This document shows positions 44,701 to 63,247 of a DNA stretch of 64,000 nt, piece by piece (positions within the stretch are counted from its first letter, which is position 1; each line of letters opens with the position of its first letter). The DNA comes from a virus. The stretch spans positions 21,482 to 85,481 of the IMG/VR virus record IMGVR_UViG_3300017728_000002; one strand, written 5' to 3'. Both the position numbers and the translations under genes were made by a program. A model generated the notes under the pieces. It was not told the origin of the DNA and did not search any database. It saw only the letters and a list, made by a program, of their open reading frames with translations.

Positions 44701-45093
44701 TACGTTCTTGCGTCATTGATTGAAGTAGATTCAGATGAAGAAGACGAGTTCTTCCTGTTGAATGACGCGTACTACAAAGCCAAGCTCTTGTACCACACAG
44801 AACGCTTAAACCAAGAGCTTGTGGCATATACTCCTTGGGGTATGTACGATACGGCTTTGAGGATTGGTCAAGACCCTGCAGCTGCTTCTAGACAGCTTAA
44901 GACGATGTTCAAGTTTATGCAACAAGCCGTCTATGGATTGGCTCCTGGCGTAGAGTTGGAGCGCTTTAAAGGCGGACGCAATTATGGTGATCTGAAGATC
45001 AGTACGTATGCTTTACAGCTATTGCCGCTTCTTAAGCAAGCTCTTCGTGAGATGAATACCATCTCAAGCCATACGATCTATAAGTTGAGTTAA
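29746..45093 (+). CDS. Giant virion RNA polymerase polyprotein with two zincin motifs (5,115 aa)
   Basis: One uninterrupted 15.3-kb frame. Around 3150-3350 is a double-psi beta-barrel polymerase region: AEVKMNRKFLPKQY, then YRVPAEGKNSMAMCKVVQFL, and the metal-binding loop GSD3252-F-D3254-I-D3256-KLF. That DxDxD loop is the hallmark of the QDE-1/crAss-like single-chain RNA polymerases that are packaged, ejected and transcribe early genes. Two zinc metallopeptidase motifs flank it: H1805-EAL-H1809 with E1841/E1842 downstream, and H3936-EFG-H3940 with E3984 downstream. A SAP/HeH-like helix-extension-helix lies at ~937-972, preceded by acidic low-complexity linkers (~760-800, ~905-935). The N-terminal 450 residues contain Gly/Ala/Lys-rich hydrophobic segments; the C-terminus has a membrane-like segment (AAIEMGLGVSSAILSYVLA). 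Known crAss-like polymerases are often ~2,000 aa, so this looks like a fusion of several cargo proteins. It may be cleaved; unproven. Confidence 0.85.
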   Translation: MSENNTTPDSSFESRQEDAGLTPKSNIRFGLKQDPLYQEQGMFQSRMTENPQVKGIDVQKYAPYTGYITHLGTRDAMRARGQSVAEKWGNGIYQAVVGEVVGGSLQGLGALGMLVDSEKNFLYELGEAINEGARDATPIYKHSDKAFAFNDAGWWASNLGNILSTVSMLVPGMAVSKGASLAARGLVAAGKAGKAVKAGKTIGKAGKVAGKAAGEAADVTADAMKASVRAQRLEKTMQTVAGGYGMRHAENIREGVDVAVQAEEEFMQDGRALEDFKGTVAYDQYLKDHDQKAPMNKQELASYVGGQAAVRSYQFNMLNLVFDVFQMGTIFKPFKAVTRGQGVGKVGAAAAGKAAAGLDKGTRATRALEKSKGFLTEVGKAATEGIEESINFMGSGEGMARAEYLRGVETGSFGERLDDYFHDSHLYESAFWGFLGGGVFQGLGSIMGKKQDAAMTSLLRQQETLVRESAELAKAEKSGDTEKANQIRARVMADLGIRASQSGRVDQLLDQLNSDDFMKQLQEQGLLGEKSIEEARNELIEGVLKQEKDYKKIAEVAEEYGLSSQEMFVLLKQQNSYDAGLKSIAEKLEAIDDASITEDQKLAAKFQLRDSLVELQKKVKKEKGKDSKTPFGAELKALQEELKDKEKPAEFEKLLTYEAFNQARLLAEQTRLKRKRAELTTEQSLAYTRTTVNAYNKNQEKVIAASFKKRVAEEENLDILNKLLEQAKRNKAKDQEILISERIAELKKTNADKTDADKAQEENEEGGTPVPKDDSTEENEPPTENEPSKENEPPEENDPDVSDVLPEGVVLEDDDEVDYTLAYREPYADGSPFDFGSLTNQERRFLDALDNLDTAETVEKAQALVSFVRNYILKQQEEGKPIKRKFDGKVVDQAIAYLAEAEKTPPAAPQDSAPQDSAPQDPTSDPPTDLPTDDLENSTVKALKAIARQEGLTGYSKLNKAELVAAIRAHREQATLFPENKVTPPTDESPAEKKRRESQQNRVEKHSKELYEALESYAEAVANRDALQDSKNADSKEAVAAELAADKAAMKVLNALNNLTSHSLLSQQNKVESYISSDLREYMELATETLEQDGYTSDHVKPGQVYDETLSVDVEIVNDETLEPGVELIQKINQPEIRKKGKVIQRGQVVVVQGPLLSKPVIEPETVEAPEGQIKMIMNDLMEAFLQQMQIRTSVTMPTTRVREHALIEGTRLTLEGPVAEQYEALMFALTNPSASVTIRISDNQVEVKNPIYKTSVNNKLGVKSLTRKTVGSKTYTYENEEDNSPDYEVVVEYQGKTVVIGNVPRVGTLLKQASRLQNQYRNQPTGDDADANPYWRNAYADANLNALQAIRHADAIALFRKYLDSQDSGSISFTGLSEQIALDGSFKRGSLLRPSDQMDTLNMHPEVTDAIDEHGLCVMMTDPSSGEPYLLNLKTGLKTAVPYQDGVMAMNAQAGTYAFKNQSNKISSTGAVFIPIRDPNSPLKPMWVRMPDMTLKEANRTDFVSNILYGPGTSEQKFELLRSVMSTPPPSVTSESQIMEGFTGAAFISGPSNGQPRLVILKDRKIVMDFNPDGTPRTEIQKAVLEQLKFRLDAKSPELASYEKEGKRDEETRQTLKSLAQSIKQNGRMPIAPVVKKDSAGNDVIIGYHHPVPAARFERDREAQSQNQLFNPEAQSTMLPIAIDMARLQAQNPEAPASPDTKPTDTSDPKKSNEKGGESTDFWNESDDGAMFMTVEKALASDFYAMSTSKDQLEAELWLAKNLPHVPFRRVKGLIERGGVTAYGIWEQGMIRVSDISVVGTEYHEALHAVMDTYLSPKRRAKIMAEARAKYGDLGPIKLEEKIAEAFREYMLTEGKSMTEKSALRRFFSEILALVQAMFQGQYRTRQLMQNINRGRYAYKPSQRSKNFLTKFSKVPAFDAAEMSELEQVMPFLVNYILKDIREAFVGNNPKDVLMRRYGREEDAQVLEGLLQTIAEIKDLSVESDEDGNTIEIQREKKKLIAEGIIRVIFDSRGLFQYMIKSSSRASEERKLEIYDRLGHNEEVLVEHFSTNPRVQRMIMQAIAIDASTGTTDIEQNFSASIAEINPMDKVPASIKNLISRTIYIPGDRSGRLIETILGNQGTEAALEAIAEVSGTDVDKSDAFSRFGLPRFLQFETVYPFLLNQLSSLPSYEAMETRMLELSVYNPSLASIVLALRKDAEPGTLTELQKQFYVGMKRASSEELNVSLETQYDERVERKFQVPVVKDEFIYEPAWHLVQRNKEAVYNAILQFTPAEKEKVLNALSALAKQRNETPEVRVKTIKILVRTFQKLEFSTMDPSALANAMHVMSNNELGGLADMLERLILAGNEAQTSAILREVVRIMKLADADMGAVQSSYMSNLKTKYAHVNPSYLTEELDRLKSAFKEEYLKERFAHNAHLEESMWHIMLDEESLTYRRFGQLGPHAYTDMDVAQRLEYDLLALFRMGKNAQGRQIRVTGYSAIPTPSDATGSFMVSNDFVHYPENVKNRILASIYDAETRKDVTHMSLPIDRSKVDINSIESKAEYMRALLEQEAAALLSIPEFKEVIDKLQVPLGYGPVEGRSRDEGRVTMVNSYVAATYVSNWNVSNWMGGTIDHFGGDVTKYQKRFKQIMSPGQTSADKGTFRNVTIEDPVVFEDWATEVEYSDNGKPVKNADGTYRRIPSAIDRADAQSYVTLDFWERMLSSHGELTDYKKAVIEKARKGEALSVSERSVFAPYKPFYFGWVQGQPHQLKNSVIPLLPPVKGQAPISVELEAMRKWMVHPDNKVDQITLKSAHKVGVTSKATSMFQDGKFKAPEPGYTQYDLPMEFHRNQVSITEHNNHNGTVGLGTQTGPIIMSNLRNYEGLGEVHIQKLLKTEQRMMNMKLKELKGKLFVQGTELGKNGEEDVSKRTVPDVARVRQYVLDNVRDDVHPAVLEILSSPLASAGRISPLVAFAVNQTLAAAVQKDFKKQKVTGGMQVQISDLGHTNPTTDADLKGMRVVGSQQEVEGPYTWDDSMATDLIVGMNNREFVVVKLGESPKTGRELNADDFLNGLKEGFEVIDMHGKKPMTVGLDSAMASLMKRDFEKWLTTKKNLKTRPQSLVTPEYISDYSDPKRELARYVKERQTNRKDFEVDPELELAYEYYRSKEIDSDRNNEAFTSSSSSLPTGPEKVVMAEVKMNRKFLPKQYREMSIEEIRAIDPTLLEVMVYRVPAEGKNSMAMCKVVQFLPSGQDGMVIPAAFVAQMGSDFDIDKLFVNWKKVPREGRELNAYDRAANKFFDLQKDVLMNPEVVKTEVLVPQGFETIKAFRTEMATARRKGGVSDIDVFAQRRPYSALTHLQLWSDNVAGIGLKGIAANNNTFWMKVQRHNMQVEGIPMKDMPLELMQWNAEAVAASMDGAKDPVWGTMGIDRKNFSFFMYECTMGYMRAMKENPSADKVKTLNKARNEALAAATDSDVMQAMTTRVNDFNAETEKTDNVKRYQAYLKQEAYRALKDLTRVSEMKINKELIDLLAAKEPVLDNYNLTLDAEGNIILDSDGNPELQAVKDAKGNTLPTMGKAYVNAPVIKGALDIATASELLMSGGMGIHYYRTVGRYNGISFPQYCAVQTFKAADEFVEGKRAEVMGERSVSERFREVDLEDVQSWNMRHWIVWLNTSDEGRAIRDDKDNAFLRKMLLHITVGRAYEVNYNRYDRITPIQLNDPIKAEEFQKAWENTLTPPLSYEGSVHYPSEFAKALVRYEAARSGWRRGSSTFTQFLPTEIVKNVSGEDATSLQIAAHAVLDSRVESGTEKMALLSNRPMRYGKHTYVTLPGENRRTKVTTPVLMLGFRGMSSIDAIAGELQVNQSTVEEEIAEYKAKQKKSQSLEAFGDIASSTTTSERIAMLQSRFASYGIKVRVEFDSTLEGAGDVQYDKESGVIRLHPDRMKSDTVLHEFGHIYIEMLGFENPAVQQAIEELRNTELYREVAEMYPHLSQRDLDMEVLATAIGLEGDAIYDKAKNPNKLRTLINKLFRALGKLFGIQPNTARELARKMIEGSDVRTNNLKSFRAEQRLKKGLDAQTLMIEVADEIMNRIDHMRRLGATTEEQQVLLDSLQEDSSMFREVAESGATAVLDSLVVAMSDYLQKTTEFISHAETYVDTSSAAGLKKQDTELLNQAYQLSQVLNTFSQTFASFDKDTVDVDFDQQERFATTNKAFVEMAGPVQVMQTRLTSLVRKMLNKKLVANSSNPRIKEAMEAGLDIFSLAQTEFGDITTDTSKGEVQFMGLLDQDSNAVLTLFGKTLRDVVNTEELQSKQDIQKLYSILDDFESQGGSIESLLDEDGQSFVSPYRDAFYSAQSKATNRRKWRAMNMEQKYVESYYLEHVYSKDHKDIKVLKEEIARYEEGARAGTLTEADKLHLDQLQEDLATREQSLESFKKYHEPVWDLEKFEKDKADAESQGPDVAAAWKAAYVHSSGKPKFNSPYYKTSKVKDKFLNPKWTGTDMPKAKWLNPKAKELSPLQQETIEALKNLMKNAVGFEDHRMFNESLIPQIENPESKSLTEVLRDMPREALETNKDTARMGTDSEGRKIFLRGGLKHSRRSDGLVSTDLRKTIAQFVVEARAAKAANNIETFSLMTRDELGRMELTARKGWSMGRVDGKRLNLNDNKRAGTIKGDRSNSMDVIEHVLEGYLGQGWQTTGKYDSQAALLQSYISFQGIGFNPSAWVNNIMYGELMQILDAVGGDMYTSESLNLAKKQVYAGIRDLALARDKGTKPKTRLAAVMHFFDATMDQRELPETSELLDKFYNLAYIGQSFGELLMQSQVVLAMMYDTKVKLDTGETVNLYEALTWDGEARGIGFKAGKVIRKDGTLVDLDINYLGSFKTKAVNVLQRIHGSYNAEDMGRFHRIAVGRLVLQFRKWMPQALKKRFGADRFSEVRETEEIGYYRALWDKIIVPGVMGNVDDAKRFRFYATYQSQPPHVQKAIKRAAIEMGLGVSSAILSYVLASLIEVDSDEEDEFFLLNDAYYKAKLLYHTERLNQELVAYTPWGMYDTALRIGQDPAAASRQLKTMFKFMQQAVYGLAPGVELERFKGGRNYGDLKISTYALQLLPLLKQALREMNTISSHTIYKLS
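32074..32138 (+). repeat. ENEPP-type acidic repeats in the giant protein
   Basis: The coding sequence repeats a 15-18-base unit encoding E-ENEPP-TENEP-SKENEPP-EEN. It forms a disordered acidic linker between helical and downstream domains. Confidence 0.7.
32467..32511 (+). repeat. Three tandem 15-bp units GCACCACAAGATTCT
   Basis: Three 15-base units (last with one C for T change) encode APQDS-APQDS-APQDP immediately before the SAP/HeH-like segment of the giant protein. Likely slippage in a flexible linker. Confidence 0.85.
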
Positions 45094-45590
45094 CCTATAG
45101 AGCGTGTGTCTAGAATGACAGGAGCTGATTGTTTAAGGACTTTCTCAATGTCGTAGACTTTAAAGTCCATCTTAAACGGGGTGTCTAAAAGAAAGTCGCT
45201 CATGTATGATATGAATTCCTTTCTGCTGGGAGCAATGTAAGTGCAGGTAAAGTTGACAGACGTACTGAGCTCTGGCGTCTGTCGCTTAAGTTTCATGATC
45301 TCAATGCACCAGTTTTGTCCTATAAGCTTGTCTTGTAGGGTGCTGGCTTCAACATCGTTTACGATGATTTCTACTTTACAACTAAACTCGAAACCAAAAA
45401 ATTTGTGGTTGATGTGACATTGGGGAGTACTGATGGCTCCTTTTTCAAACAGTGCGCGGACCCTCATTAAAGTAGGACCTGGACTAAGACCTACAGATTT
45501 AGCAAGGTCTTGGTTTGAAATGCTGGCGTCTTTCTGTAACACGTTGATTAGTTCAATGTCAGTGGAATCGATGTTTTTCTTCCTAGGCAT
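45090..45590 (-). CDS. Lrp/AsnC-type transcriptional regulator (166 aa)
   Basis: The N-terminal segment NIDSTDIELINVLQKDASIS-NQDLAKSVGLSPGPTLMRVRAL-FEKGAI is the winged helix-turn-helix of the Lrp/AsnC family (residues ~4-55), including the typical 'D-ILL-QDA-S--LA--VGLS---v--Rv--L---G-I' spacing. The C-terminal part (~60-166) lacks an obvious ligand-binding RAM motif and may differ from it. Start taken at the ATG at 45590; an upstream TTG is less likely. The stop codon shares TTAA with the giant gene on the opposite strand. It may switch between the two blocks, which is inference from its location. Confidence 0.7.
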   Translation of the reverse strand: MPRKKNIDSTDIELINVLQKDASISNQDLAKSVGLSPGPTLMRVRALFEKGAISTPQCHINHKFFGFEFSCKVEIIVNDVEASTLQDKLIGQNWCIEIMKLKRQTPELSTSVNFTCTYIAPSRKEFISYMSDFLLDTPFKMDFKVYDIEKVLKQSAPVILDTRSIG

Positions 45591-45692
45591 GAACCAAATA
45601 TGCAAAATAAACTTGCGTTTTGCTCGGGGATGTCCACAGACCTTAAGAAAAAATACCTTAAAACGGGTATTTATTTGCCTGTAAGCGAAATA

Positions 45693-46487: not shown

Positions 46488-47504
46488 TTATAAGAAAATC
46501 TTGGTCTTTGTCTCGGCTTCCATCTCTTGAACCCACGAACCGTGAGTAAAATGGTAGTTGAGACGCTGCAGCAACGACTGCAGCTCATCCTTTCCTTCTT
46601 TAAGTGTTTCGTCTGCTATGTAAAACGTACCAGCTCGGTGCGCTCCACGGGATTCTACTGCACATATGCAGTGGTCTTCTGGGGTGTACTCTTCTCCGTA
46701 GTTCTTAAGAATCCACCGATAGGCAGCTTCTTCGTAAGCAGCAATCTGACGACTGTAGTGATAGGTTTTAAAAGACGCTGGAAACATGCCCAAGGTCTTG
46801 CCTGTCGTTTTTAAGTCGATGATGCTAAACTGCTTTTTTCGATGGTTTAAATGGAGCCTATCAATTTTAGCTTTTAATGGGAAATTGTACCTGGGGTCTT
46901 CCCAATACACTTCCAGCTCATTGAAGTAGCTCATGTTTCCATTGTCCACTTTTCGAAACAAAAGCTCAGTCAACTCAGGAGAGGTATTCTCTAACGAGTT
47001 CATGCAGCTATTCAAAGAGTCTAGCTGCTTCTGAGTGATAATGAACTTGTCACTGCTACGCAACAAATCCCAGTAAGCGGAGCCTGCACTCATTACTTTA
47101 TTTATCCTTGTTTCTGGTTTCCACGTTCTCCCATAGGCTTGTCTATCACAAGCTTCAATAATCACATAGATGTGCTCATCTAAAGCTTTGATGGTAGTGT
47201 CTTCACCTGTAATGGCAGCCTTCAACTCAAGAGAGTCTTTCAAAGAAGCAAAAGCGTCTTTAAGAATGTCTCGAATCTTGTCAGGAGTATTGGTCTCATC
47301 TACTATGTAGTTGCACAAGTGCGGCTCTAAAGCTGCCAAGTGCACCAAGTTTCCAAACTCTAGACTGCTGGTCTTCAATGAAGGTGCTTTGCCATCCCAG
47401 TGCTCTTTGAAAAGCACAGGAGAACCTTCTTGGTCGGGGTTGATATAACGCAATGAGCTGTTGCTGACTGCCTTTACATCGTAGTAAGGATCATGCAGTA
47501 ACAT
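46488..47504 (-). CDS. PD-(D/E)XK exonuclease (RecE/Cas4-like)
   Basis: The 338-aa product shows the nuclease core in order: GNLVHLA (51-57, motif I with His), ELEVYW (196-201), the metal-binding aspartate in KAKIDRLHL (D215), IID230-LK232-TTGK, and the YSRQIAAYEEAAYR helix with Q253-x3-Y257. This is the RecB/Cas4/RecE-type phage exonuclease family that degrades one strand from double-stranded ends. With the SSB-like and Sak4-like genes it could form a recombination system. It overlaps the upstream gene by 14 bases. Confidence 0.8.
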   Translation of the reverse strand: MLLHDPYYDVKAVSNSSLRYINPDQEGSPVLFKEHWDGKAPSLKTSSLEFGNLVHLAALEPHLCNYIVDETNTPDKIRDILKDAFASLKDSLELKAAITGEDTTIKALDEHIYVIIEACDRQAYGRTWKPETRINKVMSAGSAYWDLLRSSDKFIITQKQLDSLNSCMNSLENTSPELTELLFRKVDNGNMSYFNELEVYWEDPRYNFPLKAKIDRLHLNHRKKQFSIIDLKTTGKTLGMFPASFKTYHYSRQIAAYEEAAYRWILKNYGEEYTPEDHCICAVESRGAHRAGTFYIADETLKEGKDELQSLLQRLNYHFTHGSWVQEMEAETKTKIFL

Positions 47505-48150
47505 TGACTCTCTTTGATGTATCAGGTGAACGCATGTAAAGCCCGTTGAGGGGCTCTTGCTTAATCAGAGTTGCAAAGCTTTGCTCATCTTCAAGGCCAG
47601 TAGGCTCATTCTTTAACTTGGCACGTATGCTTTTGGTCTTGATTTTGCTACTCAAGAGTTCATAGTAAGCCAAGTTCAAATGCATAAACTCACTGTACCT
47701 CCGACTTGAAAAGAGTTCATGCATGTAACGAGTACCTGCGTGAGTGTTGAGCATGAGCATAGGCAAGTGTCCCAGTTCAAACAAGAGCTGAATAAATCCA
47801 GCGCGTTCTGGGGCATGCTTAGCATCTAAGACATGCATCATCTTCTTTACGTTGTGGATGACAGAAGCGTGATTGCGATGAAGGATTTGACCTATGCGTG
47901 CATAAGAGTAATCCATCAAACGCAAGTACAGAGAGAGCATTGCGCGTGCTTCCACAAACACCATGCGGCGATCGGGAGGATTCACAACATCTTTGATGTC
48001 AACGCCATAAATCTGAGCAACGATGTAACGAGCCGCATCTACTCGTGCAGCATCATTTGGAGGGGTCCAGTTGGGTATGGTCTTGCAAGCAACAAAGGCT
48101 TGTACTGAAGTATCCAACCCAGCATAGAACTGAGGGTGTATAGTGTCCAT
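47491..48150 (-). CDS. DnaA C-terminal-domain-like protein (219 aa)
   Basis: Residues ~33-110 match DnaA domain IV: ARYIVAQIYGVDIKDVV, an Arg/Val-rich helix RRMVFVEARAMLSLYLRL, then the signature helix YARIGQILHRNHASVIHNVK (signature R-N-H-A-S-V-I-H; bacterial DnaA usually has R-D-H-S-T-V-x-H). No AAA+ ATPase domain is present, so it may bind origin-like DNA without ATP hydrolysis. The remaining C-terminal half is helical and unrecognised. Start placed at 48150 because a CTCTCTAC element ends four bases upstream; a longer frame to 48195 would read through a hairpin. Confidence 0.75.
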   Translation of the reverse strand: MDTIHPQFYAGLDTSVQAFVACKTIPNWTPPNDAARVDAARYIVAQIYGVDIKDVVNPPDRRMVFVEARAMLSLYLRLMDYSYARIGQILHRNHASVIHNVKKMMHVLDAKHAPERAGFIQLLFELGHLPMLMLNTHAGTRYMHELFSSRRYSEFMHLNLAYYELLSSKIKTKSIRAKLKNEPTGLEDEQSFATLIKQEPLNGLYMRSPDTSKRVNVTA

Positions 48151-48154
48151 TGAT

Positions 48155-48164
48155 GTAGAGAGTG
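48155..48164 (-). promoter_or_regulatory. CACTCTCTAC element before the DnaA-like gene
   Basis: Minus-strand CACTCTCTAC, four bases before the ATG at 48150. It lies between the hairpin at 48169 and the start, the same order as at 45917 and 53410, and settles the start choice. Confidence 0.6.
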
Positions 48165-48168
48165 AAAT

Positions 48169-48192
48169 GGGAGCAGGATTTCTCCTGCCCCC
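48169..48192 (-). terminator. 10-bp hairpin with GAAA tetraloop after rIIB
   Basis: On the minus strand GGGGGCAGGA-GAAA-TCCTGCTCCC pairs over 10 bp with one G-U wobble and a GNRA tetraloop. It starts 15 bases after the rIIB stop. The wobble pairs only in the minus-strand RNA, so it is a minus-strand structure. Confidence 0.65.
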
Positions 48193-48206
48193 CATTCATG
48201 TTTCAA

Positions 48207-49352
48207 TTAGACAGCTACGTGTAAACGTTCTGCCAGAATCTGACGAAAGCCTTGGGCTTTGCAGTCCTCTGGTTGAGCCGCTTCTACAAGCTCCTCAAGT
48301 TGTTTCTCCAACTCGCGCTCTTCCCACGTCTTGTAGTCAATCTCAAAGTATGGAGTACGAATCTCCACACCTTTGGTCAAGTCTACCATGCCGTAAGCGT
48401 AGTACTCACACACACGCATTTTCATGTAGCTGTAGTCTGAAGGGACTGCAACTACATTCATAGGATTGACAAGGCATGCAATGAATGCACTTCCACTTCC
48501 GCCAAACTTCTTAACATACTCAGGGGTGCCAATGTGCAAACCTGAGCTGCATGCATTCTTTGGGTTGTTGTCACAATCAGCACGAGGCATGCTGACGCTT
48601 CCACCCAACCGAACAGAAGTAGTTCCACTCCAGTGATCGGTAAACTCAGGCGCTTCGACAAGGCCGTTGTTTTGATCTTGGAACATAGACTCCAAGTTGC
48701 CCAAGACATTTTCCGGAGCAATGAAGTTCCCTTTGTCGTCTTGCAACACTTCGGTAAGTACCGCTTTCAAGTCTCCACCTTCAGGATCCTTGACTGCTGT
48801 GTAATCTGCTGGGTTCAACCCTTCTGCTTTGAGCATCAGGTATTCCTTAGGCACAAAGTTTGTCACAGCACTGTACTTCTTGTTGGTCTGCTTGCACGCA
48901 CGATAACCAATGAAGTACCCATTGTCGGTAATGGGGAAATCATAGGTGTCCATGAACTTAAACAGGTCTTCCCGGACGTGAGTGTCTGGGTTTAGAATCA
49001 ACAACTTCCAGAAGTTGATCATGGAAGTAATGGATTTGCCTTCTTGAAGCAAATTGGTCATCCGAACCAAAAGAGTTTCGGGTATTGCAGCAGCTTCATA
49101 CCCTGTGAGGTAGAACTTTCCGTTCCGCTCTGTCAAGATATCATTCATCTTGAGGGTGTGCCCTGGGTCCAGGTCGGACACCAGGGTTGAAACATTGACT
49201 TGCGTAGGATGCAAAGCAGTAGATTTTGCAGTTTCGTAAAATCCAGCCGCGTCTGCGTTGTTGCTGAATTGACGAGCATACATTTTGTCATCCACGATGA
49301 CGTGCACTAAGGCGTCGTGACGCAGTGCTGTAATTGAGGCAGTGTAGGCCAT
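48207..49352 (-). CDS. rIIB: RIIB-like protein (381 aa)
   Basis: The Cys-containing core NNPKNACSSGLHIGTPEYVK, then GSAFIACLVNPMNVVAVPSD-YSYMKMRVCEYYAYG, matches the T4 RIIB family. The upstream region (FLKFMDTYDFPITDNGYFIG YRAC...) is the same family's 'plain' N-terminal half. RIIB acts with RIIA at the membrane in T4, affecting lysis and superinfection exclusion; its biochemical role here is unknown. It follows rIIA directly with a CTCTCTA element in the end of rIIA. Confidence 0.8.
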   Translation of the reverse strand: MAYTASITALRHDALVHVIVDDKMYARQFSNNADAAGFYETAKSTALHPTQVNVSTLVSDLDPGHTLKMNDILTERNGKFYLTGYEAAAIPETLLVRMTNLLQEGKSITSMINFWKLLILNPDTHVREDLFKFMDTYDFPITDNGYFIGYRACKQTNKKYSAVTNFVPKEYLMLKAEGLNPADYTAVKDPEGGDLKAVLTEVLQDDKGNFIAPENVLGNLESMFQDQNNGLVEAPEFTDHWSGTTSVRLGGSVSMPRADCDNNPKNACSSGLHIGTPEYVKKFGGSGSAFIACLVNPMNVVAVPSDYSYMKMRVCEYYAYGMVDLTKGVEIRTPYFEIDYKTWEERELEKQLEELVEAAQPEDCKAQGFRQILAERLHVAV

Positions 49353-49355
49353 TTG

Positions 49356-51539
49356 TTATAGAGAGTTTATAGCTTGACGGTAGAGATCGTCACTAGTATG
49401 TTGATGTAGGATACTATTCAGTATCACGGTTCCTGCTGGCGTCTTCTGAAGTTGTTTCTGGATGTTTCTAAATTGAGCAGCTACCTTGTTAGGCGTGTAT
49501 ACTGCTCCGTTGTGCTGTAATATACTGAATGATTCTACAGATGGGGCTTCTATGTCAAATATTTCGCTGTTTATGACACTGTAAATCCAACCATTAGACT
49601 TTTTAGGTCTAGGAGGTAGTGTAAGGTGTTCTTTCAAGCACCCAAGTCGCATCAAAGTAAATCCTTGTAAGCAGTAGCTATGAATATGTTCTTTAAACCA
49701 CTGCCACTGGCTGTGTTCTAGGTTTTTAGCTTGCTGTCGTAAGATGATTTGCTTCAACTTGGCTAGATCCCAGCACTCTACACCGGACTTTTGAAGTCGC
49801 TTAAAGTTGCCGTCACTAGCGCAGTACAAGTCTTTAGGCAACACAACATTCCACTCAATAGCCTTGGCATACTTGTATTGAATGACAATTGCTTTGGTGT
49901 CTTTAAGCTCCTTGTAAGTCTTTGTTGTGCGGGTGTATGCATTATTCTGTACCACCTTTACAGGCAGTTCCGTTTTCAGCATCTCCGCAGTCCAATTAGA
50001 GCCAGTCTTACGACGAAGCTTAAGGTTTTCCTTACGGTCTACAAGCCATTTCTCTGTAGGTGTGTAATCTGCATATTTCTCTGTGTGTTTTTGAAAGAAC
50101 TCGTTGAGTATCACAGTAATGATCTGTTCAATCTTATTGTGTATCTCTTCTTTACGGTTTTCATCTACATTGTTTAAACCATACCTGCATACCTCTTGAA
50201 TAATGGGCATGAAGTTTTGGTTTACGTTAAAAATCAAAGCATAGGTGGTGGTTAGGTTGTTGTTCTCTTGAAAGAATTCTTTCCAAACCGTACCCAGTCT
50301 TTGATCTCCACGCTTTCTAATCATCGTGTAAGTAGCGGACGTGTTCGGTACTCCCTTGACAATGTCACGACCACTTAGTGTAGATACAGATCGCCACTTA
50401 CCTATTTGCAAGTCTAGTTTAGCACTAGGCTCTAAAAGTTGACCAACGATGCTCGTAAACCGGTCTTCTTGAACTTCTTTAGGCCAACCTTCAACGCTTG
50501 AGGTAAGGTGAAAATGGCGAGTACTTGCAATAATTTGATGAGTATCCGGATACACCAACTCGTTTTTACGAGAGCCATACCCATAAAGCAATTTGAGGTC
50601 TGTAGAATATCCTGATTGGGCTTGTTGCCATGTTTCAAACACAGAATTTACTTGACTCAACTTTTGATCAAGCAGTTCTTTGGCGTTGTCGTTTAACTCC
50701 AAACCTTCTCTAGACAAGGTTGGGTTGATCTCGCCAATGTTCAGCTTAATCACAAAGTTGGTCAGATAACTGTCTCCATCCAGGTGCGGAATTTTGTACA
50801 AAACATTGCCTAACGAAACCATTAGCCCGTTATGGCAAAGGGTTCTGTCGTTCTGCTCAATCCTTAAGAAAGACCCGTAATCAAAGACTTTGCTTTCATT
50901 GAATATGAATTCGCCAGGAAGAGAGATGCTCAGCATATGACCAAGAAGCACCAACTGGTTCTCTATGGCCATTACAAATTGAGTTGTATCAGCACGAGAA
51001 TACACGGGGATCGTGATTAACGTACCGTTGCTTTCATCGGTTTCAATCTCATTGATCATAGTGCATGTGCGCTCTGCACTGCTCTTTTCCATGAGATAAC
51101 TCCGCTTGACTCCGTCTATATAAGTTGTGACTTGAAAGACAGGAGTGTAAGCAAAGGGACTCTTTGCACCGATACCGAATCCACCAATCTGTTCGTTAGA
51201 ATCACGTTTGGTAGAGGCAAAGTATTGCGTGAAGATGTTCTCAATGCGGTTAGGAGTAATGCCAGGACCGAAGTCTCGCACACTAAACTCGCCTACAGCG
51301 TTACTCAAGCTTGGCACATTGGTCAGCTTTACTTGAACTTTCTGAGTGGAACGGGCTTCTTGGTTAGCGTCGACAGCATTGGACACGACCTCTCGGACGA
51401 TAGACCCATACTTGTCTTGGTATACTGAGTTAGACATTAACTCAGCGAGGTGTGTTGCGGCATCTGCTGCAAACCCCATTTTAATCTTTTGCCCCGACAC
51501 AGTAGACTCGTACTGTCGTTGGGCTGTATTCATTTTCAT
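49356..51539 (-). CDS. rIIA: RIIA-like GHKL ATPase (727 aa)
   Basis: The GHKL (HSP90/histidine kinase/MutL-type) ATP-binding motifs are intact: N-box E50-VVS-N54-AV-D57-A, G1 box D89-F-G91-P-G93-I and the lid GGFGIGAKSPFAY (119-131). The protein begins MGFAADAATHLAELMSNSVY before the N-box, as in T4 RIIA and similar phage proteins. The rest (~200-727) is charged, with no clear domain. It neighbours the RIIB-like gene as in T4. Role: inferred membrane-linked protection or lysis timing, unproven here. Confidence 0.8.
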   Translation of the reverse strand: MKMNTAQRQYESTVSGQKIKMGFAADAATHLAELMSNSVYQDKYGSIVREVVSNAVDANQEARSTQKVQVKLTNVPSLSNAVGEFSVRDFGPGITPNRIENIFTQYFASTKRDSNEQIGGFGIGAKSPFAYTPVFQVTTYIDGVKRSYLMEKSSAERTCTMINEIETDESNGTLITIPVYSRADTTQFVMAIENQLVLLGHMLSISLPGEFIFNESKVFDYGSFLRIEQNDRTLCHNGLMVSLGNVLYKIPHLDGDSYLTNFVIKLNIGEINPTLSREGLELNDNAKELLDQKLSQVNSVFETWQQAQSGYSTDLKLLYGYGSRKNELVYPDTHQIIASTRHFHLTSSVEGWPKEVQEDRFTSIVGQLLEPSAKLDLQIGKWRSVSTLSGRDIVKGVPNTSATYTMIRKRGDQRLGTVWKEFFQENNNLTTTYALIFNVNQNFMPIIQEVCRYGLNNVDENRKEEIHNKIEQIITVILNEFFQKHTEKYADYTPTEKWLVDRKENLKLRRKTGSNWTAEMLKTELPVKVVQNNAYTRTTKTYKELKDTKAIVIQYKYAKAIEWNVVLPKDLYCASDGNFKRLQKSGVECWDLAKLKQIILRQQAKNLEHSQWQWFKEHIHSYCLQGFTLMRLGCLKEHLTLPPRPKKSNGWIYSVINSEIFDIEAPSVESFSILQHNGAVYTPNKVAAQFRNIQKQLQKTPAGTVILNSILHQHTSDDLYRQAINSL
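49358..49367 (-). promoter_or_regulatory. AACTCTCTAT element in the end of rIIA before rIIB
   Basis: AACTCTCTAT overlaps the last codons of rIIA (NSL-stop) and lies five bases before the rIIB ATG. The core is in coding sequence at the start-proximal position. Confidence 0.55.
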
Positions 51540-51904
51540 AGAGAGTAATTCAATTGTGGATCTGGTATATCCGTATTCATGTATTCAGCAGCCCATTGTC
51601 GGATGCTGTCGATATAGGTTTTAAAACGATTCTTGGTCATTTCAGTCGTGCTCATGATTCTCATGCCAAGCACAATTCCGTCATCTTGTATTAGGTCGCC
51701 TAAAGCAAAATTTGCTTTGAGCCAGTTGTGTGTGTCAGTGTATGTAAGAGGTGCAGGAACAGCACCTTCAATAATTGTAGAGCGATCCCACCCGTGGTCA
51801 GTTAACGTTGAGCAAACGATCGGGACTACGATTTTCCAGTAGTACCGGTTCTGTGCTGAAGTGCGCTTTGTATCCGGGGTGGTCTCTAAGGAGTTGTCGG
51901 TCAT
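51536..51904 (-). CDS. NinB-like recombination protein (122 aa)
   Basis: The segment KRTSAQNRYYWKIVVPIVCS resembles the start of the phage NinB/recombination-accessory family, whose members have R--QN--YW. Start chosen at 51904 (MTDNSLETTPDTKRTS); a longer frame to 52000 is possible but would overlap the RusA gene even more. Even so, 107 bases overlap the end of the RusA-like gene in another frame. The stop overlaps the rIIA start. NinB-type proteins bind single-stranded DNA and aid recombination; the match is moderate. Confidence 0.55.
   Translation of the reverse strand: MTDNSLETTPDTKRTSAQNRYYWKIVVPIVCSTLTDHGWDRSTIIEGAVPAPLTYTDTHNWLKANFALGDLIQDDGIVLGMRIMSTTEMTKNRFKTYIDSIRQWAAEYMNTDIPDPQLNYSL
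51539..51548 (-). promoter_or_regulatory. TTACTCTCTA element overlapping the rIIA start
   Basis: Minus-strand TTACTCTCT runs into the A of the rIIA ATG and coincides with the end of the NinB-like gene (NYSL-stop). The core is shorter at its 3' side than other copies because it touches the start codon. Confidence 0.5.
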
Positions 51905-52445
51905 CTTGAATAAGTCGATAAACGAGTTTGCGGTCTTCCAACCTTTCCACCGGGCAATAGGAAAAGGATGGAGCTTTAGTGATGTAGTAGATGTTGTCAT
52001 CAGGTATTATGCCTTGAGCACTCAAGGCGTCTTGAAAGCATTTGTGGTAAATCCATTGATTGTCTAGATCCCACATCATTGTACCTGGAACTGTGTGTAG
52101 CTCGGCTTCAATGGCTAAAGGGAAAAAGTCAACTTCAGGAACCTTTCGGAGATGCTCTTGAAAGCTCTCTTTAATGCATGCTACCACTTTACTTCTGAGG
52201 TGTGGAGGCATATTGCCACTGTACAATTCTTGGCCGTTAATCTTCTTGATTCTTGGCTTGTTGACTGAAGCAGGATTGGCAATCAATGGTTTGCCATCTG
52301 CACCAAGCAAGCGGCTCTTGCTGTCGTACTGCTTAAACTTCTGATACTTCTTAGGGATACTGGTTCCTTTGGTGTAGTACTTAGCCCTACGTCCTTTGGT
52401 CAGTTGCACATGAGTTAGATAGCTAGGGATAACGATTTCAATCAT
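51798..52445 (-). CDS. RusA-like Holliday-junction resolvase
   Basis: The motif W-D126-L-D128-N129-QWIYH-K135-CFQ-D139-ALSAQGIIP-D149-D150 reproduces the catalytic pattern of RusA endonucleases (D-x-D-N, then Lys, Asp and a distal DD), which cut Holliday junctions using divalent metal. The N-terminal 70 residues are basic and look like a DNA-binding extension, longer than typical RusA (~120 aa). Start taken at the ATG at 52445, overlapping the primase stop (ATGA); an upstream in-frame ATG at 52466 lies inside the primase gene. Confidence 0.7.
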   Translation of the reverse strand: MIEIVIPSYLTHVQLTKGRRAKYYTKGTSIPKKYQKFKQYDSKSRLLGADGKPLIANPASVNKPRIKKINGQELYSGNMPPHLRSKVVACIKESFQEHLRKVPEVDFFPLAIEAELHTVPGTMMWDLDNQWIYHKCFQDALSAQGIIPDDNIYYITKAPSFSYCPVERLEDRKLVYRLIQDDRQLLRDHPGYKAHFSTEPVLLENRSPDRLLNVN

Positions 52446-53410
52446 TTCCTGAGGGTATCTATCCATTGAGTGGCTGCATACGGAGATGCTTTGTACAAGT
52501 CAGAGATGTCTTTAGCTCCTTCTACAAAAGCATATCTCCAGTTGAACTTTTTGCGCCACTTATTGGCAAACTTTACTCCGGTGTAGTCTCGGTCATACAC
52601 GATGACGATGTCATCAAACCGTTGTTTCCAGTCTTCTACTTCTTCATCTGTAAAGCTGTAGCTCTCGCTTTGAGGGGCTACGGCTGCAATGCCAAATTCA
52701 TAGAAGACCATAACGTCTTTCATGCTTTTGGTTACAACAAGCAGCTTTCCTTTCTGAGGTAATTGGTCTACTCCTTGCAGGCACTGCGTGTTCTGAATGA
52801 ACCTAGTGCCAGTGGAGAATGGCATATAGAGTTTAAAGAAATCATCCCCGAAGTAGTAGGCAAAGCCTGGTTGAGCGGTTCGGTGTGTAAACACTCGTTT
52901 GCCATTACAAGCAGCCAAGTAGAGCTGGAAAATTCTGTATGTCTTAAGGGTTTCGACAGTAATGCCGAACTGACCCCAAAACGATACTCCATCAGGATCT
53001 ATGTGCCATGCCCCGTTATGGGTCAAAGGCTGGATTCCAATTTCAGAAGCTTCGTTAGCGTTGGTCTTGGCGTATTCCAGGTGATCGTAGTTTTTGGCTA
53101 CAAAAGCATCTGGTATGTGCAGGTTCAAATCACTAACGATTTGTTTCAGGGCCTCTTTAAAGTTGATTCCCAATACCATACAGGCTACATCGAAACAATC
53201 CAAGCTTTCGCTTTTAGAGAAGTCTCGGAAGTAGAGTTTGCCTGCTTTGGAGTAAAAGAAACAGCACGAAGGGTTCTTGTCTTCGCGGATAGGGGAATGA
53301 AACTTTTGTTTTACCTGGATAGGAACATGGAGATAAAACTCCATGATCTGTTCTTGAGGTACTCGTTCCAATACCCAATCCCTGTTGAATACAGGTTGGA
53401 TAGCGTACAT
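52442..53410 (-). CDS. DNA primase (zinc-finger plus TOPRIM)
   Basis: The N-terminal ~95 residues resemble the CHC2-type primase zinc domain in layout: KFHSPIREDKNPSCCFFYSK, then LYFRDFSKSESLDCFDVACM and EALKQIVSDL. The TOPRIM motifs follow: GKLLVVTKSMKDVMVFYEFG (Lys replaces the usual catalytic Glu-Gly) and DDIVIVYDRDYTGVKFANKW (D-x-D). It makes RNA primers for DNA synthesis. The glutamate-to-serine/lysine change near KSMKD deserves checking. It overlaps the RusA-like gene and is preceded by a hairpin and three tandem CTCTCTAC repeats. Confidence 0.75.
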   Translation of the reverse strand: MYAIQPVFNRDWVLERVPQEQIMEFYLHVPIQVKQKFHSPIREDKNPSCCFFYSKAGKLYFRDFSKSESLDCFDVACMVLGINFKEALKQIVSDLNLHIPDAFVAKNYDHLEYAKTNANEASEIGIQPLTHNGAWHIDPDGVSFWGQFGITVETLKTYRIFQLYLAACNGKRVFTHRTAQPGFAYYFGDDFFKLYMPFSTGTRFIQNTQCLQGVDQLPQKGKLLVVTKSMKDVMVFYEFGIAAVAPQSESYSFTDEEVEDWKQRFDDIVIVYDRDYTGVKFANKWRKKFNWRYAFVEGAKDISDLYKASPYAATQWIDTLRK

Positions 53411-53440
53411 GTAGAGAGTTGTAGAGAGTTGTAGAGAGAG
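53411..53440 (-). promoter_or_regulatory. Tandem AACTCTCTAC repeats before the primase gene
   Basis: Two perfect 10-base AACTCTCTAC units plus a third CTCTCTCTAC unit run directly into the primase ATG. Triple presence makes this the densest site of the element. Confidence 0.7.
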
Positions 53441-53449
53441 AGTAGGTAA

Positions 53450-53474
53450 GAGGGGGGCCTTTGCCGCCCCCCTC
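53450..53474 (-). terminator. 9-bp GC-rich hairpin after the SSB-like gene
   Basis: GAGGGGGGC pairs with GCCCCCCTC around a 7-base loop. It is perfectly paired on either strand and separates the SSB-like gene from the primase gene. No T-run on the minus side. Confidence 0.65.
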
Positions 53475-53529
53475 CGTCCTAAGGTTTCACGTAATGCGAA
53501 ACTCCCATCACACTATTCGGTGTAACGAG

Positions 53530-54186
53530 TCAAAATTCCAATCCTGAATCTTCTGCAGCTACTGGTGGTGTCAACACTGGTGCTGGGTCTGCATCAAAAG
53601 GAGCAGGTTCACCTCCCAACATGGCGTTTAGATCATCACTGTTGGCCGAAGCTTTAGGAGTAATCCGTTCATACTTTTGGTGGTATACAAACGTATCGTT
53701 GTCACTCATAAGCAGAATGAAATCATTCAACGCGCGTCGAGGGAATACAGTAAAGTCCTTCTGGTTCAAGATTAGCTTGAGCCTAACTGGAACATCTACC
53801 CATCGATCGTTCAAGTTGTCAATGACTGCTTGAGAGAATTCTTGATAGTTGGCTCCTTTAACAGTGATGTCACTCAAAGGCATGTAGCAACTCATGATGT
53901 GCTTAATCCTTTCGGTTGTGTCACGCATCATCTCCTCTAGAAGGTCCTTGTAGTCTTTGCCCCATGCGTGAGCATTGGATTTGACTTTTTCAGGAATGAT
54001 CTCCCATTCATTATGAGTAAAGATTTGACCTTTATCATTGGTGAACTCAAACTTCAGCACTTTGTCTCCTGTGCCGTTTGCTTTAAAGGGTTCATATGCA
54101 ATGCGCTTTAAGACGCAGTTGTTGTTTGTGCCAGCAGGCATTGGATTGAAGCCACGCTTCAAAGGGGTACTGTCAATTGTAAACAT
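53530..54186 (-). CDS. SSB-like single-stranded DNA-binding protein candidate (218 aa)
   Basis: N-terminal residues 1-60 (LKRIAYEPFKANGTGDKVLK, FEFTNDKGQIFTHNEWEIIP) form strand-like sequence compatible with an OB-type fold. The C-terminus (~180-218) is flexible, acidic and Pro-rich and ends EDSGLEF, like the acidic hydrophobic tip that SSB proteins use to recruit partners. It is next to the Sak4-like, DnaB-like and primase genes, as phage SSB genes often are. Assignment rests on the tip and context; it might instead be another recombination mediator. Confidence 0.6.
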   Translation of the reverse strand: MFTIDSTPLKRGFNPMPAGTNNNCVLKRIAYEPFKANGTGDKVLKFEFTNDKGQIFTHNEWEIIPEKVKSNAHAWGKDYKDLLEEMMRDTTERIKHIMSCYMPLSDITVKGANYQEFSQAVIDNLNDRWVDVPVRLKLILNQKDFTVFPRRALNDFILLMSDNDTFVYHQKYERITPKASANSDDLNAMLGGEPAPFDADPAPVLTPPVAAEDSGLEF

Positions 54187-54188
54187 GT

Positions 54189-54860
54189 TTAGTCGATGTA
54201 GATATTAGACCATTGGAATGAAAGGGCTTGGTCAGCCAGATGAGGGCAACGACTGCCCGCTTGGGTATTGTCACTACCCGTTTTGAACGTGATCATGAGT
54301 TCATCAGATTCGCGGTAAACGAATCCAATGGCATCTGCAGCACTCATAAGCTCATTCTTAAGCTTACCGGTAAGGTTTAGCTCGTTGATGTCGATCACTT
54401 TGTTGTGATCTTCGTCCACTACAGTACTTCGCTTGGTGTGTCCAACGATGATGATACCCTTAGTGGCAAGGGCTGCCAGCTTTTGCACGGCGTTAACTAC
54501 TGCTTCACGAACTAAGGCAAAACCTTTGCCAAATTCCATGTCGCCAATAGTGGCTACTTCATGCTGCTTGCAGACGTATCGTTCTATCCAGGCAGCCAAA
54601 TTGTCTACCGTGTCTAAAGCGATGTAATCATACTTGGTGTCGGACTGACTTAAACTTTGATTTAGGAGTTTGTACTCGTTAAGATTGTCGACATACACTT
54701 TCATGGCGTCAACATATTCAGTACCTCGTTCTGTGTCAATGATTAAGCAGTTGTCCAGCTTAGCGATCGTCGATGTTTTACCGGCTTTTGGGGAGCCATA
54801 GAGAAGTAAAAATCGAGGGTCTTTTCTTGTAGCAGTTGTTTTGCTAGTGGGTAAATCCAT
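54189..54860 (-). CDS. Sak4-like RecA-fold ATPase (223 aa)
   Basis: P-loop G22-SPKAGKT29 preceded by RFLLLYG and a Walker-B-like aspartate in KYDYIALDTVD (~residues 75-84) define a RecA-type AAA core. The short length (223 aa), the aspartate-rich CLIIDTERGTEYVDAM and the lack of extra domains resemble the Sak4 phage recombinases, which anneal or pair single-stranded DNA with SSB. It lies beside the SSB-like gene and follows a CTCTCTA element. It could alternatively be a helicase-loading ATPase. Confidence 0.7.
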   Translation of the reverse strand: MDLPTSKTTATRKDPRFLLLYGSPKAGKTSTIAKLDNCLIIDTERGTEYVDAMKVYVDNLNEYKLLNQSLSQSDTKYDYIALDTVDNLAAWIERYVCKQHEVATIGDMEFGKGFALVREAVVNAVQKLAALATKGIIIVGHTKRSTVVDEDHNKVIDINELNLTGKLKNELMSAADAIGFVYRESDELMITFKTGSDNTQAGSRCPHLADQALSFQWSNIYID

Positions 54861-54868
54861 TTTAAATT

Positions 54869-54878
54869 TTAGAGAGTT
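54869..54878 (-). promoter_or_regulatory. AACTCTCTAA element before the Sak4-like gene
   Basis: Minus-strand AACTCTCTAA, overlapping the stop of the DnaB-like gene, eight bases before the ATG at 54860. Confidence 0.55.
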
Positions 54879-55860
54879 ATGATAGTATTCGGGAGTCTGT
54901 CCATTCTGTGATACGCCCTTGATCCAAATCAGAAATCAGACGAACGTACCCTTGGGTTCCATGTCTGTTCTTGAGGATGTGAAGGGCAATCAAGTTCTTG
55001 CCTTGTTCTGTTATTGTAGGGACGTGATTCTTACCATAGACTTCTAGTCCCAACAATGCCGGCTGGTGTACCACAAGGCACACATCGCAAGCATGGTAGA
55101 GTTGTTTGGAACCATGGATGTCTGTTTTGGTAGGGAAATGCAATGAAGCAGCCCCTGGGTCACGTCGTATAGCTGATTCTATTTTGTCATTGAGTTGGCA
55201 TAGCAGGATGTTCATGGTATTGAACTCCTTGCGGATCTTGATGAACATTTTACCAAGCTCAGCTAACGTCTGTATCTCGTTTTCACCTGGCATAGGCTGA
55301 ACCAGCAAAGCGTGGTCTAGCGTAACAACCAAGTTGTCGTCTGGAAACTTCTCACGCATCTTACAGATGGTGTTCAGTATGTCTTGCCTTGTACCTGGAG
55401 TTTCGCAGAAGTAGATAGGCTCTTCTCGAACTTTGTCTAGTTGCTGCTTGACTTTTTGGTATTGGTCAGCGTCTAAAGGACGATCTGCAGAAAGCAAATC
55501 CCGATATGACAGCTGTATGGCTGTAGACAATCTGCGCAAAATCTCTGTAGAAGCACTCATCTCAAAACAGAAGTGTAGAATTTTACACTTGTGGTTTTGA
55601 ATTCGCTCATTGATGAAATTCTGTATCAAAATATTCAGCATGTAGCTCTTACCATGACCTGAAGCACCACACAGCATATAGGTCTGCCCAAACTCAAAAC
55701 CTCCCAAGAGGTATCGGTTGAGCAGATCCCATTCTGTGCGCACCATAACGCGGTCTCCAGTCATAGACGCGTAAATCTGTTGATTGGCGTCTTTGATGGA
55801 AACTGCCATCTTCCGAATGGGAAGACTATTGGAGCTCTCGGTCTGCAGGTAAGATGACAT
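54877..55860 (-). CDS. DnaB-like replicative helicase (327 aa)
   Basis: The RecA-like core has Walker A GASGHGKS (about residues 65-72), a Walker B stretch NLVVTLDHALLV and the conserved C-terminal segment KNRHGTQGYVRLISD. This is the helicase domain of the DnaB family; the usual N-terminal primase-interaction domain is missing, the first ~40 residues being a short linker (MSSYLQTESSN). It would unwind DNA at the phage fork, with the primase nearby. Start at the ATG at 55860 inside the upstream gene's end; a GTG at 55875 or the ATG at 55809 are alternatives. Confidence 0.75.
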   Translation of the reverse strand: MSSYLQTESSNSLPIRKMAVSIKDANQQIYASMTGDRVMVRTEWDLLNRYLLGGFEFGQTYMLCGASGHGKSYMLNILIQNFINERIQNHKCKILHFCFEMSASTEILRRLSTAIQLSYRDLLSADRPLDADQYQKVKQQLDKVREEPIYFCETPGTRQDILNTICKMREKFPDDNLVVTLDHALLVQPMPGENEIQTLAELGKMFIKIRKEFNTMNILLCQLNDKIESAIRRDPGAASLHFPTKTDIHGSKQLYHACDVCLVVHQPALLGLEVYGKNHVPTITEQGKNLIALHILKNRHGTQGYVRLISDLDQGRITEWTDSRILS

Positions 55861-56389
55861 TGCCTGTTGTATCACGCATTTCTTCTAGGGCTTCCCATTG
55901 ACGGGATGCAAACCACTTTTCGATTCCCATAGAAATCTTGTGGTTCTTGATTGCCCAATGAAGCTGGTCCATGACACGTCGGTGCTGACCTCGCTTGACT
56001 ACTTTTTGATAGTACTGTCTCTCTAATTCATCTAAATCACAACTTCTTGCCGCTACTTGCTTGCCGTGTATGAACAACCACTTGGGGTATGCGCTAATAA
56101 ATTCTTCAGCACTTGCCCAATCGCAGTTCTTCTCAAACATCTCTGTTCCTTGCTCTGTCAACTCAAATTGGTCTAGAGCAAATACCCCAGACTCATTCCA
56201 GTTGTAGATGTAGTTGCGGTCTATCAAATCATGGACTTCTTCTTTGGTCAAGACTTTACCGTTTACGTCAATCAACGAGTAGATAAGCTTGAACTTCTTT
56301 TCATACATAATTGCCAGGAACGCATACTGGCTGGGGGTCATCTTTGTTTTTTGTAAGAACTTGACCCAACGTTCTAAATCAATGATCAT
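55826..56389 (-). CDS. Hypothetical protein between helicases (187 aa)
   Basis: Overlaps the SF2 helicase stop (ATGA) and the DnaB start by about 35 bases, so it is translationally coupled. It is helical with charged segments and Trp residues (LERWVKFLQKTKMTPSQYAF, EEVHDLIDRNYIYNWNESGV), the latter with a winged-helix look. A helicase-loader or regulator role is conceivable because it sits between two helicases, but no motif proves it. Confidence 0.5.
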   Translation of the reverse strand: MIIDLERWVKFLQKTKMTPSQYAFLAIMYEKKFKLIYSLIDVNGKVLTKEEVHDLIDRNYIYNWNESGVFALDQFELTEQGTEMFEKNCDWASAEEFISAYPKWLFIHGKQVAARSCDLDELERQYYQKVVKRGQHRRVMDQLHWAIKNHKISMGIEKWFASRQWEALEEMRDTTGNVILPADRELQ

Positions 56390-57630
56390 CTGAATAGATC
56401 GATTGTAGCCTTGTCTGTGCCAGTACCTGTTATTTGATAAAGCAAGTCACTGACATCTTGAAGGCCGATGATGTTAACACTTGACTTCTGTCGATCTCTA
56501 AGCCACTTTTCGTCTTGAGTGTTCTTGACATACAGATTGATGATGTAGCCTGTCTTGCCTTCTTGAAAGCGTATGGCACGTCCTGTACGTTGTATGTTCT
56601 GTCGTTGACTAGCAGTTCCACTGCAGATCAATGCTACTTCTACTCCGGGAACATCAAAGCCTTCGTCTAACGCTTTGGCTGTGTTGATTACCCGTATATC
56701 TGATTTGTCGTCTTGAAAGTCTTGTAAAGCTTGTGCTCGTTTGTATTTGGCCATCTTACTGTTGTAGCTAGTAGACCAAGGAGCGGTCACTTTAGTTAAG
56801 TTTTCTGCAAAGTCAATACTCTCACTAAAAGTAATTGTCTTCATGTCTAAGGATTGAATAATCCGTGAGGCTGACTCAATCTTAGAGGGGTAAGTATACA
56901 GAAACTTCTTTCGCATAGCAAGGTTCTTATTGAAGTTTAGAGCCCAAATGTGAACTTGTTTCTCTGTTACATGAAATCGAGAAGCAACGCTTCTACGCGC
57001 AGCGTCACTCTTTAAACAATGCATAGCGTGCTTAAAATCATGTCCAAACTTGGCGAAGTAGTGATTGAAATCATCACTGAATTGTTTGTACTGCGCTCTC
57101 TCTTGATCAGACATGTATAACGGCACGTTGTAGGTTTTGAAATCAGACACATATCCGTCTTTCAAGGCTTCAGTAAGAGAAACCTTGTCAATGACGGGAG
57201 CATGTTGCCGAATCAAATAGTCTTGACCATCCTTGCGGTCAAGGGTAGCGGTGAGTCCTAAGACCCACTGATAAGTAATCACTGAAAACACCTTGCTAAA
57301 CACAGCACTTGCGTAGTTGTGGATCTCATCTAAAATGAGAAGGTCACACGTATGCTTGCGTTTGACACCAGAATTAACCACCATCACTTTGACTCCTGAG
57401 AGCATGTGTTGGGTGACTTGTTCTTCCCACTGGGTCTTAAGGTGTTTGGTAGGAACTACGACAAGCGTAGTCTTTTCAGGATACTGTTCGTTTGTTTTTT
57501 GAATAGCAATGACTGCAGTGTACGTTTTACCAAAACCTGTACAGGCTTCTAGCGTACCTCTGCAGCCATTGCTTACCCACTTGCGCAAGATGCTTTTCTG
57601 TCTTGCAAGTTTTTTGCTGTTTACGTCCAT
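56386..57630 (-). CDS. SF2 DEAD/DEAH-type helicase (414 aa)
   Basis: Motif I T31-GFGKT36, motif II D101-EIH104, motif III TAT (127-129) and motif VI QRTGRAIRFQEGK (near residue 360) are all present, the set of a DNA/RNA helicase related to the UvsW/RecG/type-III-restriction branch. It may unwind branched DNA or help initiate replication. The sequence between the lobes (~170-260) includes a charged insertion. It starts after a 68-base gap from the secreted-protein gene, with no CTCTCTA element visible there. Confidence 0.85.
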   Translation of the reverse strand: MDVNSKKLARQKSILRKWVSNGCRGTLEACTGFGKTYTAVIAIQKTNEQYPEKTTLVVVPTKHLKTQWEEQVTQHMLSGVKVMVVNSGVKRKHTCDLLILDEIHNYASAVFSKVFSVITYQWVLGLTATLDRKDGQDYLIRQHAPVIDKVSLTEALKDGYVSDFKTYNVPLYMSDQERAQYKQFSDDFNHYFAKFGHDFKHAMHCLKSDAARRSVASRFHVTEKQVHIWALNFNKNLAMRKKFLYTYPSKIESASRIIQSLDMKTITFSESIDFAENLTKVTAPWSTSYNSKMAKYKRAQALQDFQDDKSDIRVINTAKALDEGFDVPGVEVALICSGTASQRQNIQRTGRAIRFQEGKTGYIINLYVKNTQDEKWLRDRQKSSVNIIGLQDVSDLLYQITGTGTDKATIDLFR

Positions 57631-63242: not shown

Positions 63243-63247
63243 GGTGA

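Follow-up and report, generated by a model that had tools for sequence, protein, structure and literature searches.

A phage protein resembling DnaA domain IV without the ATPase part, encoded among replication and recombination genes of a putatively crAss-related virus

The DNA-binding module of the bacterial initiator DnaA, domain IV, is structurally represented by the Escherichia coli (PDB ID: 1J1V) and Mycobacterium tuberculosis (PDB ID: 3PVP) proteins. In DnaA, Arg399 inserts into the minor groove, the helix spanning residues 434-451 recognises TnCACA in the major groove, and the T435M and R399A substitutions impair DnaA box binding (PMC5742627). Stand-alone versions of this domain are already annotated in many phages, and our Foldseek search against predicted viral proteins returned short phage proteins in large numbers, many of them named 'Chromosomal replication initiator, DnaA C-terminal'. 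Foremost as predicted-structure matches were proteins from uncultured Caudovirales (e.g., A0A6J5QEQ0 and A0A6J5KJ76), which likewise are small and contain domain IV only, though their identity to the protein described here is low (mostly 10-25%) and any sharing of its tail with them would be putative. Similarly, the 'DnaA protein' of Olleya phage Harreka_1 (QQV90431.1) and gp40 of Cellulophaga phage phi46:1, both phages of Bacteroidota, have an ATPase-free DnaA-type helix-turn-helix encoded near replication or recombination genes, but differ in size (145 and 170 aa, respectively) and in their neighbours, with about 24% identity for Harreka_1. A Rhizobium phage is a further named phage with such a gene. 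CrAss-like phages reportedly encode, within the replication block, a replisome organizer or phage O-type protein (PMC7886860), which could be a functional counterpart, though by that paper's naming these are set apart as different families. In the literature, we found no study of a DnaA helix-turn-helix protein in crAss-like phages or of what phage DnaA domain IV does, nor any experimental role for the stand-alone proteins.

The stretch of DNA analysed here (the window, 64,000 nucleotides) covers positions 21482-85481 of a virus record of 85481 bases. An earlier note had placed a DnaA domain IV-like protein at 47491-48150 and named no strand; the gene is on the minus strand (219 aa), and we uphold these coordinates, even though the longest open frame (48195..47491) would give 234 aa. 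Specifically, the second ATG at 48150 aligns with the N-termini of both relatives described below, and a strong hairpin occupies the DNA between the two ATGs, so the shorter frame is the better gene call. Lying just beyond the rIIB stop codon (Table 1), this hairpin is present in 3/3 phages with differing stem sequences and RNA z-scores of -3.1 to -5.9, and is probably a terminator-like or processing element outside the function of the DnaA-like protein. Elsewhere across the three genomes, G-rich/C-rich hairpins that resemble it recur.

Table 1. Positions of the DnaA domain IV-like gene, its parts and its neighbours in the window.
Feature	Position	Strand	Remarks
Exonuclease VIII-like PDDEXK gene	46488..47504	-	Directly downstream of the DnaA-like gene in 3/3 phages
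DnaA domain IV-like protein, 219 aa	47491..48150	-	Preferred start; longest open frame begins at 48195
C-terminal tail, including stop codon	47491..47766	-	Residues 144-234 (234-aa numbering); least conserved part
DnaA domain IV-like fold, residues 50-143 (234-aa numbering)	47767..48048	-	VIA-align to 1j1v; PF08299
RNHASV signature, start of recognition helix	47860..47877	-	RDHTTV in E. coli DnaA
Hairpin just 3' of rIIB stop codon	48163..48198	-	Counterparts at L002:7150-7179 and L003:7117-7164
rIIB-like gene	48207..49352	-	Directly upstream of the DnaA-like gene
rIIA-like gene	49356..51539	-
Replication/recombination cassette: NinB, RusA, primase, Sak4-like, DnaB-like and SF2 helicase genes	51536..57630	-

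Residues 58-118 (234-aa numbering) match the Pfam family PF08299 (Bac_DnaA_C) with an E-value of 4.7e-8 and 33.4 bits, which exceeds the curated cut-off of 31.5 bits, while the copies in the two relatives score 47.7 bits and, just below the cut-off, 30.2 bits. The signature peptide ILHRNHASVIHNVKKM reported earlier is indeed found within this minus-strand ORF, and a search for the pattern R[DN]H[SATC][STC][VI] across the three genomes, translated in six frames, hit this gene only. Models of full-length DnaA align over domain IV only and at less than one tenth of their cut-offs; for TIGR00362, which takes in the AAA+ domain III, the match is confined to model positions 345-420 of 437 (28.8 bits versus a cut-off of 343.9). 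As judged from these alignments, the AAA+ ATPase part is therefore absent, which separates the protein from full-length DnaA and places it with the phage stand-alone DnaA-C proteins, being phage-encoded with domain IV and no AAA+ part. The proposal of a DnaA domain IV-like protein without the ATPase is thus borne out, but this combination, real as it is, is not unusual, since DnaA C-terminal domains that stand alone are encoded by many phages.

The predicted structure points the same way. Our AlphaFold2 model, built on a three-row alignment, has a low overall confidence (mean pLDDT of 50.5), with values of 53-82 in ten-residue blocks across the domain region. With Foldseek, the top ranks were the DnaA chains 3pvp, 1j1v, and 1l8q, with TM-scores of about 0.8 as normalised to the isolated DNA-binding domains. 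Structural superposition with VIA-align onto residues 374-467 of 1j1v gave a Z-score of 12.8 and a rmsd of 1.9 for 92 residues, as compared with a Z-score of 6.3 for the best non-DnaA chain. The fold match that the earlier note had proposed as a check was thus obtained, and it spans the whole of domain IV, including the last helix; a second model, made from the L002 relative, gave the same top family. Because the model is of low confidence, we regard the support for a DnaA domain IV fold as moderate. Taken as modelled, the protein would comprise a short N-terminal part, a complete domain IV (helix-turn-helix and minor-groove loop), and a tail of about 90 residues, for which model confidence is too low to name a fold.

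With E. coli positions assigned by counting along 1j1v (residues 374-467), the likeness to DnaA takes in the fold over the whole domain, the signature region, and the equivalents of R407 and H434, which in our alignment are invariant in 3/3 phage proteins. In contrast, the phage protein is without domains I-III, has the extra tail, and varies at several positions, such that in the three phage proteins the D433 equivalent is N, D, and N, that of T435 is A, S, and C, that of T436 is S, and that of Q408 is A, A, and S. Moreover, the loop NPPDRRM retains two arginines, either of which might be the R399 counterpart, a one-residue change in loop length making the assignment ambiguous. From this pattern of residues, DNA binding by the protein appears likely, whereas binding to the canonical DnaA box appears uncertain.

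These residues bear on the possibility that the protein occupies host DnaA boxes and so blocks or reprograms initiation on the host chromosome without acting on phage DNA. Retention of the R407 and H434 equivalents would suit such a role, as would the single exact DnaA box (TTATNCACA) in each of the 3/3 genomes, as if boxes were avoided. Here, a first-order Markov model predicts about 4 boxes and permuted words give 3.0-4.7, though the shortfall is insignificant in each single genome, and depletion is suggestive only. However, affinity for the canonical box is doubtful given that T435, which is needed for E. coli DnaA box binding (T435M is defective; PMC5742627), is replaced by A, S, or C, and that D433 is N in 2/3 phages. 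Since the gene also does not lie within a host-takeover gene block, we consider this role unlikely.

Enrichment of DnaA boxes on the phage side was likewise rejected, as the boxes show neither an excess nor clustering in any of the three genomes, and the search for TTATCCACA-like repeats near a phage origin, suggested in the earlier note, thereby came out negative. The window's genome has no 8-mer with four occurrences inside 400 bases and no exact-repeat array that would mark an origin, while each relative's genome has two clustered words; no over-represented 8-mer is common to all three genomes, and GC skew was uninformative for an origin. Even so, a diverged or degenerate binding site in the phage DNA is compatible with these searches.

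The minus-strand block of the window reads SF2 helicase, DnaB, Sak4-like, primase, RusA, NinB, rIIA, rIIB, the DnaA-like gene, the exonuclease VIII-like gene, ORF203, and DUF3310. Two IMG/VR contigs (75.6 and 74.1 kb) share the order rIIA, rIIB, DnaA-like gene, and exonuclease, and these were the only contigs with relatives in our scans of viral_contigs with the DnaA-like protein family; genome_contigs gave none, and a tblastn search with the window protein found no close relatives in named phages. In one of the two, rIIB and the DnaA-like gene are separated by an inserted spore photoproduct lyase-like gene (PF20903, E-value of 3.3e-27; L003:7167-8021, plus strand). Pairwise identities among the three phages are 65-73% for rIIB, 60-67% for ORF203, 53-58% for the exonuclease, 43-46% for the DnaA-like protein, and 36-42% for rIIA. 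Within the DnaA-like protein itself, the last helix of domain IV is the best conserved part (73-87%) and the tail the least (28-44%).

Two further roles are to be weighed against this neighbourhood. As a transcription regulator, the DnaA-type helix-turn-helix would act at phage promoters, either switching gene blocks or autoregulating, and an ATPase-free DNA-binding domain is just what a simple regulator needs. The block also contains the non-replication genes rIIA and rIIB, an origin-like array was not found, and DnaA can itself work as a transcription factor in bacteria, as PMC8203912 states. On the other hand, in 3/3 phages the gene lies within a replication/recombination cassette, with rIIB on one side and the exonuclease on the other, and our searches gave no operator-like word or repeat common to them; we rank this role a close second, as a possible one with less than an even chance. 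Alternatively, the domain could be a general DNA-binding module and the protein a partner of the adjoining exonuclease in recombination or DNA processing, as the exonuclease gene comes directly next in 3/3 phages with the recombination genes NinB, RusA, and Sak4 close by. Drawn from gene adjacency, this putative partnership is the least probable of the four roles.

As for the phage, its terminase is closest to those of Flavobacterium Fpv phages (39%) and Suoliviridae crAss-like phages (34-36%), and the best rIIB match is cr116_1. In addition, a 5115-aa ORF (window 29746-45093, plus strand), probably a giant transcription-block protein, contains by eye an SDFDID resembling the DxDxD of crAss-like phage RNA polymerase, along with HEFGH, a motif seen in zinc metalloproteases. 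By likeness in terminase, rIIB, and SDFDID, the phage may be crAss-related. Searches with PF08299 and the A1 profile gave zero matches in the genomes of 17 named phages that are crAss-like or allied to these, of which 15 are Crassvirales according to their taxonomy line and the other two Fipvunavirus and Lightbulbvirus, with positive controls matched in 10/14 well-known genomes for PF08299 and no positive control for the A1 profile. Presence in this part of phage diversity thus looks sporadic.

Other features of the record were also noticed. An Lrp/AsnC-type helix-turn-helix protein (window 45090-45605, minus strand) overlaps the end of the giant plus-strand ORF by a few bases, and a search with a defence-system library gave zero matches. 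At the record's end, 1847-aa and 218-aa ORFs (window 57699-63904, minus strand) have weak dockerin type I matches, and a 927-aa ORF on the same strand runs off the record's start; on a circular genome, these may belong to a single gene region. The 927-aa ORF is closely preceded, on its upstream side, by a 25-mer, TATGCGTTACATTAAAGAGCGCATA, identical in two phages (L006:2795-2831, minus strand, in record G000; L013:7534-7570, minus strand, G001 64534-64570) whose proteins are only 40-75% alike. It forms a hairpin in which the outer pairs vary yet mostly stay paired, and can be read as a mini-ORF of 10 codons (MRYIKERIPS or MRYIKERILP, then a stop), which makes it a candidate leader peptide or RNA element. 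It is missing from G002, and beyond its own record it occurs in viral_contigs in G001 only, with zero matches in the phages collection. Elsewhere on the record are PolA and a tyrosine integrase (L007:3717-4790), the latter just downstream of about 45 bases like the 5' half of a tRNA-Gly(GCC) gene (L007:3588-3633), where ARAGORN finds no whole tRNA. As a candidate att site, this stretch would point to a temperate lifestyle in a relative of crAss-like phages. With its 39-base core exact in more than 100 bacterial stretches, the sequence is too widely conserved for naming a host, and this was rejected.

On the sequence and the model, the DnaA-like protein most likely binds dsDNA in a sequence-specific manner, as part of the replication/recombination block. 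As to its role, we tentatively prefer an accessory initiator or origin marker, ahead of regulator and then host-box capture, as a matter of judgement and not of calculation, and even this leading role falls somewhat short of an even chance. Domain IV would bind a phage-DNA site that has diverged in sequence from the canonical DnaA box, and the tail would assist in bringing in DnaB helicase, primase, or recombination proteins encoded by the phage itself; given both, the protein would serve as an accessory initiator or marker and not as a DNA-melting initiator. In its favour, we count the PF08299 score over the cut-off with DnaA domain IV as the top fold, well clear of the rest, the R407 and H434 equivalents invariant in three phages, and the kept gene order beside DnaB, primase, Sak4, RusA, and NinB. 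We also count that the replisome organizer or O-type gene reported in the crAss-like block was not recognised in the scanned parts of the window's replication block. Against it stand the lack of DnaA-box enrichment or cluster and of an iteron-like array, a purely putative tail contact with DnaB or primase, and the low-confidence model. Moreover, as the scan covered part of the record's genes, another initiator may exist in the record. A bolder form, in which a crAss-related lineage has an ATPase-free DnaA-derived initiator with a phage-specific box and a helicase recruited via a new tail domain, replacing the replisome organizer, strikes us as improbable.

The find is confirmed yet fairly ordinary. 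With stand-alone DnaA domain IV proteins common in phages, and this cassette kept in three divergent ones, it is a reasonable test case for whether phages have borrowed DnaA's DNA reader as an initiator, as a regulator, or to disturb host initiation.
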